Below, piece after piece: positions 3,791 to 13,256 of a DNA stretch of 64,000 nucleotides. The notes under the pieces are model-generated. The model was not told the DNA's origin and did no database searches. It saw only the letters and a program-made list of their open reading frames with translations. The position numbers and the translations under genes were made by a program. This DNA is from Prillingera fragicola (taxonomy: Eukaryota > Basidiomycota > Tremellomycetes > Trichosporonales > Trichosporonaceae). Position 1 is the stretch's first letter; each line of letters opens with the position of its first letter. The stretch spans positions 1,550,001-1,614,000 of the forward strand of contig BEDY01000002.1 in NCBI GenBank assembly GCA_002335605.1, in the 5' to 3' direction.

Positions 3791-6221
3791 TCAAAACTGC
3801 CGATTCACGTAGATCCCAGTGGTCTCAGCTTTTACACCGGGCTTACTTGCGACCACCTCAATCTTCATCTCCATCCCACGGGCGGGGACTGTCCAGCGCA
3901 TGCCCGCCGGCCTATCCTTGGCAACCGCACTGGTTCCAGCGCCATACAGGAACACGGGCACAGGTGCAGGGGTGCCATTGACGCGAAGAGAGACTTCAGG
4001 TCCGGCCACAGCGTTCGGCTCTCCTGGCGTGGAACTGGCGTTGTCCGCGACGGGGGCAGGGTCCCCCTTGGCTGGTGGCAACAGCCAAGCCGTGAGTTCG
4101 AGCTCCGCCGTTCCCGCACCGACGAGGACTGAGTGAGTCACGACGCCTCTCAGGTTGTGTAACCTGATGGCATTTCGCGGAGCTGGGGCAGCGGGCAGGG
4201 TACTCGTGGCAGACGGCGGCGGTACTGGGATCGTCGTGGCGACCACTGGGGACGGGGGCGCACGCGATGCCATGGTGTAGGCCAAATCGATACGCTTGAT
4301 CGTGGGGCTACCCGGTGGCCGAGGCTCTGCTTGCAGGCCGACGCGGGAGCCGTGGGGGGTGAGTTCCATGGGAGAGGGCTGCGGAGGAGCAACACCACGC
4401 TTTCGCGCCTCGTTGGCAGCTACCATCTGGCGATATATGTTTTGAGCGAGCGCAGGAAGTGATGCAGCCCACAGCTGCTGTTCGTACGCAGGGTACCGAT
4501 CCAGGCTCGCGACAACTTCTTCAGTCACTACTCCGTGGGGTAGTTGGGGCAGATACGGCGATGACCCTATAACCGGGGCGGGTGATTGGCTAATCGCAGG
4601 GGACGCATGGTAAGATGCAGAGGCGCCGGCTGGCGTAGTCGGAAATGACGTTTGCTGCTGGTACGAGGAGCGCACATCTGGAGGAAAGGCCATACTGGTG
4701 TGCGTTGTGTGCGGCGTGCTCGCCTGACCGCTATGACGCACGGGCGTGATGGCGCTGACGCGCTGCTTGCTCGAGCTACCCGTTCGTACCTGGGATAGCC
4801 GCTCCTTCACGAGATCACGATGTTGGGAGACAATGTTGCGAATCTGGCGCGCATCCCGCCAAACCTCGCTCTCGTCCTCGTTGTATGACAGCGCATTGTC
4901 GCACATGAGTTCGACGTCGTCAAAGAATTGCTCTGCACCATCGTAGCGTCGAGCAACCATGCGCTGCTCAATTTGATCCAACGAGACCGGGTGCTTGACC
5001 GTTCGATAATAATCCTGGAATTCACGGCGATCAGGCAAATGAATAAAGATGGCTGCAATATCGCGGTCGCGTCCACTGCCCTGTCAGCCCTTGCACGTGC
5101 ACCCGACAACCTACTCTTCTGACTTAGCTTCCTTGATGGCGCGCATACACGGCTTGATAAGCTTGTACACAGTCGGTCCGTCTTTCATGTAAGCTCCGCG
5201 CTTCTTGCCTGTACCAGCGCCGCCCCGCGAACTTGAGCCATGGTCCCCAGCAGGAGTAGATGGGCCCGGTGTCGCGTTGGACTGCTCATCAGCACCATCG
5301 GGGTCTGCCGTTTGTCCACGCGAGCCCTCGTCGTCTTCGGCCTCGGAATCGCTGTCGTCGTTCTGACTCGTATGTTGAAAGTAAAAGGTTCGGGTCACTT
5401 TCTGGACATTGTCAGCCCATGAATGGGTGAGCAGGCGTGCCACGTGCACACGCATGCTGGCCAAGAAAAGCGCGTCGGCAGGCAATTCCACTCACGTGCA
5501 GCTTCTTGGCCCACTGGAACAATACCGAGTCCCGGATATTGTCTGCATTGTCAGCCGTGCGCTACCAGTCGTACACGTTCAGCTCGGCCGCTTACATCGC
5601 TTGGCGTTGTTCCAGATTTGGCCAAAGTCATGGCAAACGCTGTTCAAAGTATCGTACTGCGCTGCTTCCAGCTTATCGTGCACCATGTCCAGCGACATTG
5701 GGTGCTTGATCGTGTCATAATAATCGGGGAACTGACGCTTGCAACGGTGAGCGTTTGGTCTGGCATCGTTGACGGCGCAACACAAAACATATCGGTCTGA
5801 AGGCGACGGCACTCACCTTGTTGGGAAGTTTGACAAAGGGCTGAGCCATTGATTCTCCGCTGTGTGATCAGTAAAGCGCACGTTGAGTGAAGAGCGCTCC
5901 GGCAATGGGCAGCCGTGAAATGGATATTTTGACTCACGAGCTGTCCGTCATAGCCATAATCTTGTTGAACAACTGCAAGCCAAGCTGTTTTGCACGTTCA
6001 GGATCCTTGGGGTCCATGTCTGGTTTCTTATCTGCGGGTTCGACACTGGGAGTTCGGCGGCGTTTGCTGCGGCCTTCGCTGTTGAGGATGAGGGAAGGGT
6101 TGACGTCGAGCCTCCGCTTTCGTGCGGGCTTGTCCGGCGAGCCTCCGGGGTTGCCACCAGTACCCTCTGAGGGTTGCACAGCCGCTGGTGCAGTTTCGGC
6201 TTGTGGTTCGTCCTTTACCAT
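3791..6221 (-). CDS. RSC4: Tandem-bromodomain protein, RSC4-like chromatin-remodeller subunit
   Basis: Six exons (6221-5938, 5859-5817, 5737-5596, 5542-5496, 5401-5115, 5075-3791) give 695 aa. Bromodomain 1 (about residues 85-185) reads 'FVKLPNKRQFPDYYDTIKHP...' and ends in 'AKRYNIRDSVLFQWA', with the acetyl-lysine-binding Asn in YN. An acidic Ser/Asp linker follows. Bromodomain 2 (about 255-360) reads 'LPDRREFQDYYRTVKHP...' and 'ALSYNEDESEVW', again with the Asn. The C-terminal half is a Pro/Ala/Ser-rich linker and then a beta-rich conserved end. Two bromodomains without a BAH domain fit Rsc4 (RSC complex, nucleus) better than Rsc1/Rsc2; a PBRM1-type name is the alternative. Bromodomain 1 is spread over five short exons and bromodomain 2 lies mostly in one long exon. 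The gene is divergent from the HDAC fusion gene. Confidence 0.85.
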
Positions 6222-6589: not shown

Positions 6590-9500
6590 ATGGCCAGTGG
6601 CCACCAAGGGGAATCCGGCCCCCTTGCGCTACTCATCCAACCAGCATGTCTTCAGCACAAGTACATTCGTCATGCCAACTCATCGCACATCTTTGAGAGG
6701 CCCGAGCGTCTTCGCGCTGTGTTGTTGGGCTTCGCGGCAGCCCTTGCTCGCCTCGAAGCTGACGACGCTTCCAAGGTGCCAATGTCACCCGCAGCGTCAG
6801 CTGATGGTGGCGACGACGATTTGTCGAATATGCTCTCGAGCTTGTCTATTCGGCCGTCAGTATCAGCCTTTCTCCCTCCTTCACATCTCATCCTCCCCCC
6901 GCCTCCCTCGCCACCTTCCACGCCAGGGCAGGTGCTCCTGCACAACCCGGCGCTGCAGCTCGCTCACGCCCCACCCGAGGAAGCACCGTTTCCCTTTATT
7001 CCCAAGTCTCGCGGTGCTGCTTTCCCCAACAGCACCTATCTCCGCGATCTTTTCAAATGGGCGAGCGAAGCAGTTGAGGCCATCCGAACAACTGGATGCG
7101 AGATTCCTCCAGACAAGGGTTTAAACCCAGGTGACCTTTATCTGGGTCCTGGCACTATCCTCGCAATCGAAGGAGCTGTAAGCGAAGGATCATTTGGTGG
7201 TACTGACCGCAAAGGTGCAAACAGTTTGCCAGGCTGTCGATGGGGTATGCGCCGCAAGCACACACGGGCAGCCTACCACCCCTCCTGCCAGCGTGCCAAC
7301 GTCACCCTCTGCATCACAACAGAGCCCGACAACGCAGTCATTTTCCGCAGCCTTTTGCGCCATTCGACCTCCTGGACACCACTGCGGCGAGGACGAACCC
7401 TCTGGGTAGGTCATGAGTGACAACGTCTGCTGACTTCAGCTTCTGCTACGTGAATAATGTTGTCGTTGGCGCAATGCATGGTACGTTGCTCAGTGGCACT
7501 GTGTAGTCCTCGATCTGACATTGCAGCCTACATTCAACATGATGTTGACCGCGCGATTATTATCGATTTTGACTTGCATCATGGTAATGGCACCCAGGCT
7601 CTGGTCATGCCCTTGAATGCGGCAAGCTACGCGGAGGATCTAGCCATGGCAGCAGGGAAGCCACCAAGCGACATGAGAGGCCTCAAGGGTCCTCGACGCG
7701 GATGGAAGGGGTTCTACGGATCGGTGCACGACATCTACAGTTATCCCTGCGAGGTGCGTATATTGACTACGCTCTGACTCACCCACTCAGGATGGCGATC
7801 TCGACTTGGTGAAGGATGCGAGTCTCAGCCTTGCTGCTCACGGACAGTACATGTAGGTGTGCGTTTCAAACCGCAGGACTGACACCCGCAGTGAGAACAT
7901 TCATCTGCAGCCATATGCCAATGAGGCCGACTTCTACGACCGAATTTATCCTAAATATCTCGCATTGCTGGACAAGGCACGCGTATTCATGGATGAGACA
8001 AAGGCAGACCCCGAGCGTACTGTTGTGTTTATCAGGTTTGTTCACCACTGCTGCAGGTGACTGACATTTCAGTGCTGGATTTGATGCTTGCGAGCACGAA
8101 CACCAAGGCATGCAGCGCCACGATCGACGAGTTCCGGTATCGTTCTACTCACGGTACACCAAGGACATCATGGCCTTTGCCGATGCCCACGCTCAAGGCA
8201 AGGTCGTATCTGTGCTGGAGGGAGGATATGGTGACAGGGCCCTTACGTCGGCAGCAATGGGCCACGCCATTGGAATGCTGGGCCGCGACGGTGTTGCAGA
8301 CTGGTGGAAGCTCGAGGAGTTGCTCATGGTAGGGGAAACGAGCCTCAAAAGTAACTGACAAGCGAAGCTCGAGCGTGCCGTGAAGAAACGTCGCAAAGGA
8401 AAGCTGTGCGCCCTGCCACCAGACCTCTCCTCTATTTCTCACATTGCGCGAACGCACGCTTTGCTGTCTCACTTTGAAGGAGGGGCTCCACCAGAGACTC
8501 CAGCTCCTAGTGTCAATGCGACACCCCAACAGCGCATGACTCTTAGGGAGCGCCGACCGAGGCAAGTTCCTCTGGACGACAGTCCAGCACCTCGCAGACG
8601 AGGCAAGACTCCAGCATCTACAAGCACCACCCCTGTCGCCACCCCTCGTCGTCCACATGTGACCGACAATCTGGCGTCCAAGATGAAGCAAGAGGTTGGC
8701 TTGGAGGTTGAACAGGCGAGCGAGAGAAAGGCGGCGACAGTGCAGTCAACACTGTCCGATGAGAAGCAAGGTCAATCACCCGCAATGATCGTTGATGACA
8801 GCAACATAAATGGTACATTCGCCCTTAACGCCGCAATGGCGGGGGTAGCCCTTGCATCCCCACCCAAAACGACAGGACTTCAAACAGTGGACAAGTCGTC
8901 CGCTAGCTCAATCGACGAGCCGAAGATCATGCTGCGTATTCCGCGCGTTACTCCTTCTGTCTCATCTCGTGACGTCTCGCAAAGCCAGTCGCCTGAAGCA
9001 CCGGCGCCAGTATCTCCCACTAAGTCTCCAGAGTCCACGGTCTTTCGTCCTGTCGATCCTCAAGCGGCCGTGCCAGCCCCTTACAATGGACCAGTGCTGG
9101 ACTCTGCTCAGCCCACGACTGGATCTGCCTTGCCAGCGTCATCTACAAAACAAGGTGTATTTGATTCGGCACTGCGTTCGCCTTCTTCCGCCTCTCCTGT
9201 GCCATCGCCGTCATCAACGACCACCAAACACAAAGTCATTGGCCTCATTTCTGGGGGCAAGGACAGCATCTTCAGCCTCATGCATGCAGTCGCCAACGGT
9301 CATGAGATTGTCGCCCTGGCAACCCTCACTCCCCCACCCGGAATCGGTACGTATTCGGGGCATTGTCGGGTGCTGACACATTGCAGACGAGTTGGACTCC
9401 CACATGTACCAATCTGTTGCCACGACGTTGCCCCCTCTCATTGCAAAGGCCATGGGGTTGCCGCACTATTCGCGCGTCATCACTGGCAGTGGAGTGGAGA

Positions 9501-11700
9501 AAACCTTGGAGTACGGCTCCCGGCAACTCAGTGGTGCGGGCGCCGGTGTAAAAGGAGACGAGACAGAGGACATGGCAGTGCTTTTGCAAGAAGTTATTGT
9601 GAGTGCCAGGTGGAGATTCGAAGCTCATTCTGCTAGGCCTCACATCCAGAGGCGACAGCCTTGTCTTCTGGTGCCATTCTGTCCAACTACCAACGCTTGC
9701 GTGTGGAGCACGTTTGTGGACGCCTGAGGCTGACATCTCTCGCCTACTTATGGCAGAGCGAGCAGCTTCCACTCGTTATCAGCATGATCAGCAGCGGCCT
9801 CGAAGCGGTTCTCGTAAAGGTATCCGGGTCAGGACTAAATGAGCAACACCTCGGCAAGTCGCTCAGCCAAATGTTTCCTGTCCTTTCACGACTGGTAAGT
9901 CGAGTTTGGACGGCCAGGACTGACCACGGCAGGAATTGCAAAATGGCACACACCCTGCTGGCGAGGGCGGCGAGTTCGAAACGTTTACCCTCAACTCGCC
10001 ACTATTCTCTCATCGCATCGTACTGGGCAGGAGCGAAGTGGCCGTCACTGACGCTTCCCCCATGTCCACGGTAGCCTATTTGCGCATTCATGAGGCAAGA
10101 CTGGAGGCCAAGGATGGGTGGGTTCGACCTACCTCGCAAGAGCTTCGGGGTTTGCTTGGCCTAGAGGACCACGACCCCCGCGGCCTTGATGAGGCAGCCG
10201 TCAAGGTGCTGGATGCGTGCAACATGGACATCGTCCCCCCTCATACTAGCTTGGCGTATAACAAACCACGCGAGTCAATCCCGGACGCGCTTCGTTACGG
10301 GCATAAAGGTCGGTGGTTTGCGCTTTCCGCCGAAGGATCAAGGCTCGGTACTGAGTCAATCGGCGAGGAGTTGACTCGTTGCCTCGACAGCATCACCCGT
10401 GAGCTACGGTGCCGTGAAAGTGGCTGATTGCGTAGAATGTTTAAACCGCCACGGGCCATCCCTGTTAAGCACGGCGTATGTGACCCTCATGCTGGCTGAC
10501 ATGTCCTTGTTTCCGGCGGCCAACGAGGCATATATGCGGTACTTTGGCGCATCACCTCCGGCCCGTGCATGCGTGGCGGTTCCAATGGATGAATCAAACC
10601 AGCGTGTTTGTGTTGAGGTAGTCGGACTGGACGACGAGCCAATGCCTACGGTACACGCGCTTGGTAGTCAACGGGTGGGAGATCGCAGCGCCTTGCACGT
10701 GCAGGGGTTGAGCTACTGGGCACCGGCCAACATTGGCCCGTACTCCCAGGCTGTTACCGTGAGTAGCTTTGAACTCGTTTGCATGGAAGCTAACATGCGC
10801 AGGTCAATTCTCGTGTCCACATTGCGGGCCAGATTCCGCTGTTGCCTTCGTCTCTCACTATTCCTGCACCTCCACCTGTGCCGGCTAGTCCTTACCCTGC
10901 CCAAGCGGCCCTCGCTCTGAAGCACGTCGGCAAGATTGTCGAGGTGCTTCGCTCCCCCAACTCGACAGGCGGCAACTGGCGCGGGTGGGGCGAGAGCGTC
11001 GTAGGCTGGTGGGCCTACCCCATTGACCTGTCCAGCGGAGGAGAGGGTTCCGACGTCGCGCGGCGAGCATGGATTGCCTGGGCACGAGAGAATGGGTGGA
11101 CTGGAGCACCAGCCATCTTTGTTCGAGCCAGTGCTCTTCCGCGCGGTGCTTTGGTCGAGTACCAGGTCAACATGCACACTGGCCGTGCAGGGTACGCCAC
11201 CTTGGCAGACGACGACCAGGACTACTTTGAAGAGCCTTTTGCAAAGTACTCACACGGAAAAGCTACCCGAGCCTACTGGGAGACCTGTATTGCCCCACCA
11301 AACCGTCAAGGGGCTCGTGCGGCCATTTTCCTTCAAGGTAAGCATTTTTTCCTCACGCGGAGTAACAAGTTAACCATCGAACAGAAGCCAGTGGCGGCAC
11401 CGAACTTGCAAGCAGCAGTGACATCAGTGCGGTCCTAGAGCATGCAGTTACAATCCGCGTTTACCACCTGCCTTCGGTTACGCCATCACAAAGTGAGTGC
11501 CAGGTCTACCCGAGGTGTTGACAGAACAGTTCTCCTCCTCCGTCACGCCGTCGCACGCGGTGCTTGCTACACTAGCATTCCCACCCACGAGATTTGCAAC
11601 GTACACGGCGAGGCATTTGCCATCGGGCTTGAGCTGTTTGGCGCGTAGAGCTGGAACCTGCCCAAGAAAAGTGCAGTTTTGTGAACTACACACAATGTAA
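6590..11700 (+). CDS. Fusion protein: Hos3-type histone deacetylase + Dph6 diphthine-ammonia ligase + two RidA domains
   Basis: Fifteen exons: 6590-7177, 7215-7405, 7440-7480, 7527-7753, 7791-7852, 7892-8035, 8073-8328, 8368-9346, 9387-9598, 9637-9894, 9933-10398, 10436-10758, 10803-11337, 11385-11492, 11525-11700; 1,521 aa. Residues about 15-480 are a Hos3-like class II HDAC with intact active-site blocks: 'RPPGHHCGEDEPSGF' (about 250), 'DFDLHHGNGTQ' (about 288), 'SAGFDACEHE' (about 419) and 'LEGGYGDRAL' (about 468). A disordered Ser/Pro-rich tail (about 505-790) runs in the same 979-nt exon straight into a Dph6 ATP-pyrophosphatase domain with PP-loop 'SGGKDS' (798-803), 'SSGAILSNYQR' and 'GEGGEFETF' (about 996). 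Two YjgF/RidA domains follow (about 1085-1205 and 1235-1490), as in yeast Dph6 (YLR143W). Dph6 amidates diphthine on eEF2 using ATP and ammonium. No stop or start separates the halves. The last exon is the least certain. Confidence 0.85.
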
Positions 11701-13256
11701 TTTATTAATTGTCGATGTTCGTTTGACACGAAGAGCTCCCTTAGTCTATCCGCAATGTCAGGATGATAACGATGCACAAGAGATTGCAGGGAACTGTTGT
11801 AATACCGTGAAACCCGCTGAAAGGACAGATCCACAGTACAGCCAGAGCCGAGACATGGGATGGCGCTGCCCTGTCGTTGCGACCCTTTCGCGATCTACGT
11901 TGTTCGAGACTTAATGTTGGGTTGTTCCTGTTGTTCGCTTGCTAGACAAAGACTCGGGACCTCGGCGCGAAGCCTGATCGACTGATGCAGAGAGTGCTCA
12001 AATATTTCTAGGCCAAGCAGGCACAGGGCACGCCGATCCTTGAGATTTGCTGGCGATCCCTACCCTGAGCAGCCATTCACCCATCACTGCCGCTTAAGCG
12101 TGTGCTCGTTTGACGGATTAAGCGTTTGCTCCCCGAAAGACAAACCGGGCAGCTCATGACATGAGCATGTGTACCTATGAGTCTCGGTACCAGAGGGATC
12201 ATGGAGCGGTCTGCATTCGTGCAGCAGTAGCTGCAGAAGGCGACGCTAGGTACCCAGACGCGTCTGTTTAACATCGCCGCGGTAAAGCCCCGCGCGGTAC
12301 GCGTTAACAAGAATATGCCACCGAAAAGCACACAGAAGGCACCTCGAAACGAGGTCCAAGTGCAATCCTGAGTCGCCCCAGGGGCGCAAGACTAACGGCA
12401 TTGTCCCAGACGCGTTGTGCTGTGAACAGCAGCGCACTTGTACGTGCAAGTCTGCCGTGTTACAGTGTTATCTCGAGTTTCTTGGGAGGGAAATTGGAGA
12501 CATTGAGCAGAGTTGTCTGCTTGAGTAATATTACACACCAAACGAGTCCAAGTCCCAGAGACCGGGGTCTGCGTCAGAGGAACGGAAGAGACGAGCTATC
12601 ATTCAAGCGCCTTGTGGTCTACCGTTGTCGTGGCTCGCAATTCCAGGTACCATGCCGAAACGGGTTGACGGGCGTCCCTGCCCGGGTGTGGCAGGTGTCG
12701 GTCCTGGCGGCAAGCGTTGTTCTGTGACTGTTGACGTGAGATTGCGTGAAGCGGGCCGATTCAACATTAGTGTGGTCGTGCAAGGACCGAAAGTGGCAGG
12801 CTGGAACTACGGGGACAGTTTCGATCAGTTTAAGTGGCTCCAGCGTTTTTGCGATGGCACGATGTCGCAGCAAAAGGTCATTGCAGGCCCAGTGAGGTGC
12901 GTGGTAGAAGTCCATACCAATGTACAACTATGTCTATGTGCTTGAGTGTGCTATGGGATGTCGGACGGTTGGGTCCGACCGTATGGGTAGGTGTGGAAAA
13001 AAATCGTTGGACAGTGAGAGTGGCCGCCAGCTGCGTGCTGAAGGTCACTGGTCGGTGCGTCCTAGAGGTCGTGATGTACATGAGGCTTTGCATGGGCAGT
13101 GTCCTTGTGGCGCCTGATGCTTGCGGCGTGTGGATTGCAAGCACATTGGCGCAGCCAAAAGTGTTTCGTGGCTGTGTATTGTTCGGGCCGCGCAGCGGCT
13201 ATGGTTGTGGATTGCGTCGTTGTCGCTTTTATAAGCCAGGGCCTTGAATGGTCCGA
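11701..13256. other. Intergenic, no gene recognised
   Basis: About 1.55 kb between the convergent ends of the fusion gene and the orphan gene at 13257. One plus-strand frame is open near 12652-12945 for about 98 codons, but it lacks recognisable similarity, domain or splice context. An imperfect direct repeat built on TTAAGCG-T-TGCTC occurs near 12094 and 12118. Nothing else stands out. Confidence 0.5.

Follow-up and report, generated by a model that had tools for sequence, protein, structure and literature searches.

In a probable fusion gene of Prillingera fragicola, a predicted Hos3-type deacetylase runs on into a second, complete Dph6

A 64,000-nucleotide window of the Prillingera fragicola genome (contig BEDY01000002.1, positions 1,550,001–1,614,000) carries a plus-strand gene in which a Hos3-type histone deacetylase (HDAC) and the diphthamide enzyme Dph6, complete with two Rid domains, share one open reading frame. 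Such an in-frame fusion had been proposed in the first-pass annotation of the window, and the open junction exon and Pfam matches confirm it. The end at 11700 and the length of 1,521 amino acids given there would fit an alternative last acceptor; the gene now closes at TAG 11646–11648 after 1,502 residues. The spliced gene has 14 introns of 34–47 nucleotides and a single stop, at its end.

6590–11648, plus strand: whole fused gene, from ATG at 6590 to TAG at 11646–11648, 15 exons, 1,502 amino acids, spliced by hand against relatives
6590–7177, 7215–7405, 7440–7480, 7527–7753, 7791–7852, 7892–8035, 8073–8328, 8368–9346, plus strand: exons 1–8
9387–9598, 9637–9894, 9933–10398, 10436–10758, 10803–11337, 11385–11492, 11530–11648, plus strand: exons 9–15
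7118–8259, plus strand: Hos3-type deacetylase domain, residues 177–480 (PF00850, Hist_deacetyl, 134.3 bits, cut-off 27.9)
8368–9346, plus strand: junction exon 8 (979 nucleotides), Hos3 tail and Dph6 start in one open frame
8383–8403, plus strand: basic patch KKRRKGK, residues 509–515, possibly a nuclear localization signal, with a like patch in all 26 of the non-Naganishia relatives compared
8923–8946, plus strand: Hos3 tail motif KIMLRIPR, residues 689–696, which includes the Met at 8929
9226–11645, plus strand: complete Dph6 module, residues 790–1502, without its own start Met, aligning end to end with the stand-alone Dph6 and 24 others
9232–10037, plus strand: PP-loop diphthamide synthase domain, residues 792–1021 (PF01902, Diphthami_syn_2, 112.3 bits, cut-off 23.2)
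10332–10620, plus strand: first Rid (YjgF) domain, residues 1120–1203 (PF01042, Ribonuc_L-PSP, the better of two stretches)
10720–11330, plus strand: second Rid domain, about residues 1237–1425, edges approximate (second PF01042 and TIGR00004 stretches, PRK11401 match)

Two splice choices were discarded on the way to this model. An acceptor for intron 14 that gives a stop at 11698–11700 was replaced by one ending at 11529, which yields the C terminus common to other Dph6 proteins; intron 1 as 7178–7232 loses VQTVCQ, which relatives have, and is drawn as 7178–7214. The 14 introns score 6.2–19.6 (leave-one-out), and, as first modelled, nine contain CTGAC, two a close variant and three neither. 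The whole-protein database search was run with an earlier 1,515-residue model; the Hos3 and Dph6 searches, trees, conservation counts, tail comparison, codon scan and strict intron scan used a 1,496-residue model or its parts.

Judged by its domain match and motifs, the first half is a Hos3-type class II deacetylase, predicted to be active. The closest solved structure is yeast Hos3 (7wjl, E 2.4e-56), which scores 194.7 bits where the second best reaches 108.4. The translation contains HH 251/252, D289, H291, D422 and Y470; we take D289, H291 and D422 to be zinc ligands, and all of these positions to have the roles that they have in class I/II HDACs. Every Pfam family of the fused protein exceeds its cut-off, with Ribonuc_L-PSP matched in two stretches, and the motifs of both halves were located, in agreement with the earlier statement that both catalytic sets look intact. 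The Hos3 part groups with Vanrija and Cutaneotrichosporon (support 100/100). No other Hos3 was found in the P. fragicola genome: five of seven matches to the deacetylase part are the fused gene itself, and the remaining two are short and 47% identical. The other Hist_deacetyl loci are therefore other deacetylases.

By comparison with its relatives, the linker is Hos3's own tail. We compared 29 Hos3 relatives (26 non-Naganishia Tremellomycetes and three Naganishia), leaving out the short P0225 (459 amino acids) and P0226 (517 amino acids). A degenerate KIxLRIP pattern occurs in 24 of the 26, being absent from Tremella and Kockovaella, and in none of the three Naganishia proteins, which by eye have KIILKF or VILKF. 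In the fused protein 93 residues separate this motif from the start of Dph6 (KHKVIGL); in Hos3 of Vanrija albida, the top match among the Hos3 matches listed, 91 separate it from the stop. Dph6 thus starts about where Hos3 would end. We infer that this tail is flexible or disordered.

The two halves meet inside the junction exon (residues 504–829), where the basic patch is followed by some 286 residues, mostly of low complexity, and then by KHKVIGLISGGKDS. Read in the Hos3 frame, the exon has no stop between the introns on either side. The earlier reading of one 979-nucleotide exon, stop-free and holding the end of the HDAC module, a linker of about 285 residues and the PP-loop, holds, except that the exon takes in about 40 residues of Dph6 and not 50; its further remark that the nearest Met upstream of Dph6 is at 8929 agrees with the translation, which has no in-frame Met between 8929 and 9280. 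An open run of 94 codons arises at 3,832 of 127,436 positions in the shuffled window and at 11 of 1,036 positions of 11701–12500, a region taken as non-coding; a run of 285 codons arises at none of 126,290 shuffled positions. By codon score, the model frame exceeds the other two plus-strand frames in all 12 half-overlapping 150-nucleotide windows of the exon, and is the best of all six in ten, one reverse frame scoring higher at 8893–9042 and 9118–9267.

The second half has the hallmarks of Dph6. Its closest solved structures are archaeal (3rjz and 2d13), and it carries AGEGGEFET together with SGGKDS, that is, the EGGE-x-E motif and not ENGEF/YH; in an excerpt of PMC3541065 the former marks Dph6 and the latter the B12-type DUF71 proteins. 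Conserved PP-loop domain residues are SGGKDS 798–803, E888, Y918, Q919, E997, E1000 and E1002. No change is seen at any of 12 positions examined that belong to the PP-loop, are catalytic or face EF-2, one comparison row being truncated at the PP-loop. The same excerpt lists S44, Y45, E78, Y103, Q104, A149, E183 and E186 (PF0828 numbering) as EF-2-facing. Mapped by eye, the fused Dph6 keeps the equivalents of S44, E78, Y103, Q104, E183 and E186, and has His for Y45 and Gly for A149, as is also the case in the stand-alone copy and in the Tremellomycete sequences displayed. Against the archaeal model TIGR03679 (Dph6_archaeal, cut-off 197.3) the fused copy, the stand-alone copy and Vanrija Dph6 all fall below threshold (158, 159.3 and 160.3 bits). 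The fused Dph6 is probably a working enzyme, perhaps mildly relaxed.

Searching the genome with PF01902 identified one Dph6 locus besides the fused gene, on another contig.

G000:C5:35501-38896: stand-alone Dph6, about 37 kb from the contig start, with its own start Met and three introns

This protein is 713–714 residues long; we used 713, moving the first acceptor 3 nucleotides further on to match relatives. By eye, all three of its introns match positions in the fused copy, whose Dph6 part has seven. The two proteins are 55.6% identical over 723 columns and are sisters in the Dph6 trees, with support of 92/91 in a tree of 19 of the 26 rows (also used to test the age of the duplication) and 87/90 in the larger one; the pair falls inside the Vanrija/Cutaneotrichosporon group (99/97). 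The fused Dph6 is thus a diverged paralogue with a backup. Its retained introns mark it as a DNA copy rather than a retrocopy, and the simplest account would be that a gene-sized stretch of DNA was duplicated into the 3′ end of hos3. Comparing about 42 kb around the stand-alone gene with the open reading frames of the window's first 40 kb, we found only dph6 in common. The genome also holds two loci of PF01866, which we take to be the Dph1/Dph2 family, suggesting that the first stage of the diphthamide pathway is in place.

The join was not seen elsewhere in the searches made. None of 91 matches to the whole protein carries both domains (by precomputed Pfam lists, from 7,986 candidates of about 833 amino acids upward), and neither does any of the best 120 of 2,265 Dph6 matches or of the best 120 of 929 Hos3 matches. 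These searches scored candidates of 0.55–1.75 times the query length that shared exact words, and few Trichosporonales are among the matches. Hos3 and Dph6, one row each, are listed on different contigs in ten of ten species, picked by eye: V. albida, Cutaneotrichosporon spelunceum, Cryptotrichosporon argae, Kwoniella shandongensis, K. newhampshirensis, K. dejecticola, Kwoniella sp. CBS 6097, Kwoniella sp. DSM 27419, Kockovaella imperatae and Cryptococcus sp. DSM 104548 (a species' rows may come from different assemblies). Relatives thus have the two genes that the first-pass annotation had raised as a possibility, but the contigs listed do not place them side by side with a stop in a homologous linker between them. 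Its remark that no HDAC–diphthamide enzyme fusion had been described is matched by the open-licence full-text literature searched, where we found no description of a Hos3–Dph6 fusion, no paper treating YLR143W and Hos3 together and nothing on a Naganishia histone deacetylase with folylpolyglutamate. Among other Dph6 proteins, those of Synchytrium (P0021, P0022) and Bifiguratus (P0018) are annotated with DHH/DHHA2, tubulin or Ish1/DUF2087 domains, possibly through merged gene models. Upstream of the fused gene, a minus-strand open reading frame (window 5579–5812) has a translation that by eye resembles a bromodomain.

A second enzyme is annotated on the same tail in three Naganishia Hos3 proteins (N. 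liquefaciens P0014, N. vaughanmartiniae P0015 and N. friedmannii P0016). Here the partner is FolC, a dihydrofolate/folylpolyglutamate synthase, nearly full length and scoring 224–237 bits against a cut-off of 162.65. The Pfam scan finds a Mur ligase domain in P0014 and in neither P0015 nor P0016; P0014 alone was compared with solved structures. A FolC on the same tail favours a tolerant, enzyme-capturing tail over a specific link between Hos3 and diphthamide.

Taken together, the gene is most likely a real fusion in which a spare Dph6 copy is tolerated on the flexible tail of Hos3. On this account, a DNA copy of dph6 would have landed at the 3′ end of hos3; once Hos3 had lost its stop and Dph6 its start, the Hos3 promoter would drive a single protein of 1,502 residues, ordered as deacetylase, native flexible tail as linker, and complete Dph6. 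The stand-alone gene would do the housekeeping job, and the fused Dph6, diverged yet constrained, would probably still carry out the amidation of diphthine on eEF2 at whatever site Hos3 brings it to. What allowed the join, on this reading, would be the flexibility of the tail together with the existence of a spare Dph6. Chemical coupling between deacetylase and Dph6 is most likely absent. What we observe is the open frame, the native tail, the intact motifs, the second Dph6 and the lack of another Hos3 match; we infer the single transcript and protein, its activity and the order of events.

Several observations weigh against this account. In absolute terms the codon score of the model frame is negative in three of the 12 junction-exon windows, and towards the end of the linker third-position GC is down to 0.44, compared with 0.58 in the deacetylase part and 0.62 in the Dph6 part. 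A 51-nucleotide intron candidate at 8695–8745 scores 12.1, comparable to a weak true intron, with 10 of the 14 true ones scoring higher. The relative-rate test finds more unique changes in the fused Dph6 with two outgroups (99 versus 61, p 0.003; 90 versus 62, p 0.02). Four alternative ages for the duplication are not rejected (p-AU 0.071–0.184). The Naganishia joins are known from annotated proteins only, P0015 has a Met directly before its FolC part, and Hos3 and FolC may be separate genes there.

Low GC directly before Dph6 and the weak intron candidates are also what one might expect of two separate genes, with Dph6 made from its own transcript, begun either internally or in a hidden exon further upstream, and an unrecognized intron ending Hos3; the Met at 8929 could then begin Dph6 with a 99-residue leader. 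That Met lies inside a Hos3 motif, however, and the whole junction exon lacks an in-frame stop. A strict scan of the exon (donor, CTRAY branch, first AG), which recovered nine of the 14 introns as then modelled, gave no candidate, and no CTRAY branch-like motif was found in 8861–9228. Looser scoring, with hand-set branch weights and with candidates, unlike true introns, not scored by leave-one-out, returns 132 GT–AG pairs. Use of 8695–8745 would preserve the frame and so shorten the fusion, not break it, and the best frame-shifting candidate among those shown (8947–8984) scores 7.6, lower than 13 of the 14 true introns. We consider separate genes distinctly improbable. An artefact of assembly or sequencing, whether a chimeric join or a missed frameshift, seems very improbable indeed: assembled contigs can be chimeric, but this join lies within one exon, in frame, about 1.56 Mb into a 2.63-Mb contig, and Hos3 tail homology reaches to 93 residues before it. 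A collapsed repeat is unlikely as well, since the two Dph6 copies are only about 56% identical.

If the fusion is real, its Dph6 might still be a decaying passenger that has lost enzyme function. In 24 other Dph6 proteins (drawn, for tree and count alike, from 120 listed matches) 115 columns are invariant; of these, the fused copy departs in six and keeps 109, whereas the stand-alone copy departs in one and keeps 114; the faster change seen with two of five outgroups points the same way and makes mild relaxation possible. With the other three outgroups there is no faster change, and the 24 proteins themselves, left out one at a time, depart in 0 to 8 columns, so that single-copy enzymes of other species reach higher counts than the fused one. 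The 12 positions checked are intact, the seven introns have GT–AG ends and 713 codons are open. Over a branch of 0.6 changes per site a neutral copy would be expected to lose far more than six of 115 columns, and we regard decay as unlikely. A selected coupling of the two enzymes, with deacetylation and eEF2 maturation coordinated at, for example, the bud neck, nuclear pore or nucleus, appears rather improbable too. In its favour, neither module has been disrupted since an old duplication, the fused protein retains the basic patch beside its deacetylase domain, and an excerpt of the review PMC6960265 reports yeast Hos3 at the bud neck and daughter nuclear pores, where it acts. Cryptococcus Hos3 is, in an excerpt of PMC5979944, among seven class I/II deacetylases studied by deletion. 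Against the coupling, a stand-alone Dph6 remains, the join occurs in none of the 91 other database matches, the Naganishia tail is annotated with another enzyme, and YLR143W and Hos3 were not found together in the open-licence literature. The Rosetta-stone link between deacetylation and eEF2 diphthamide formation that the first-pass annotation had drawn is not supported, given the stand-alone Dph6, the FolC annotated on the Naganishia tail and the separate genes of the relatives compared.

A tolerated spare Dph6 on the Hos3 tail would represent a new two-enzyme domain architecture in which both halves are apparently functional. With a separate Dph6 retained in the same genome, the fusion is a clean natural experiment on how well gene fusion predicts a functional link. 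Considered with the Naganishia proteins, it also suggests the Hos3 tail as a repeated landing place for enzymes, and counsels caution in Rosetta-stone inference. A bolder and quite doubtful reading makes Hos3 a Tremellomycete fusion hub, whose tail has captured an ATP-dependent C–N ligase at least twice (Dph6, and FolC as annotated) with the pairing under selection. Were that so, ligases would be placed at, for instance, the septin neck or nuclear pore, and a dedicated second Dph6 would complete diphthamide on eEF2 in a way specific to a compartment or to the daughter.

Hos3 of Vanrija and Cutaneotrichosporon shares the deacetylase domain, the basic patch and the KIxLRIP-like motif (64–71% identity to the closest relatives), but stops in its low-complexity tail where P. 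fragicola Hos3 continues into Dph6. Eukaryotic Dph6 of the yeast YLR143w type, including V. albida P0092, likewise combines the PP-loop domain, EGGExE and two Rid domains; unlike it, the fused module has no start Met, sits behind a deacetylase and has a second copy in the genome. The Rid domains on Dph6 are proposed, in the excerpt of PMC3541065, to supply ammonia, which would explain their presence without the deacetylase. That excerpt describes DUF71/Dph6 fusions too (asparagine-synthetase-type and Rid), so that Dph6 is there also joined to other domains; its partners are read as ammonia suppliers, and no deacetylase is among those it names. In the Naganishia Hos3–FolC proteins a Hos3 tail is again joined to a nearly complete metabolic enzyme shortly past the tail motif (KIILKF/VILKF), with FolC, known from annotated proteins and not from DNA, in the place that Dph6 takes in P. 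fragicola.

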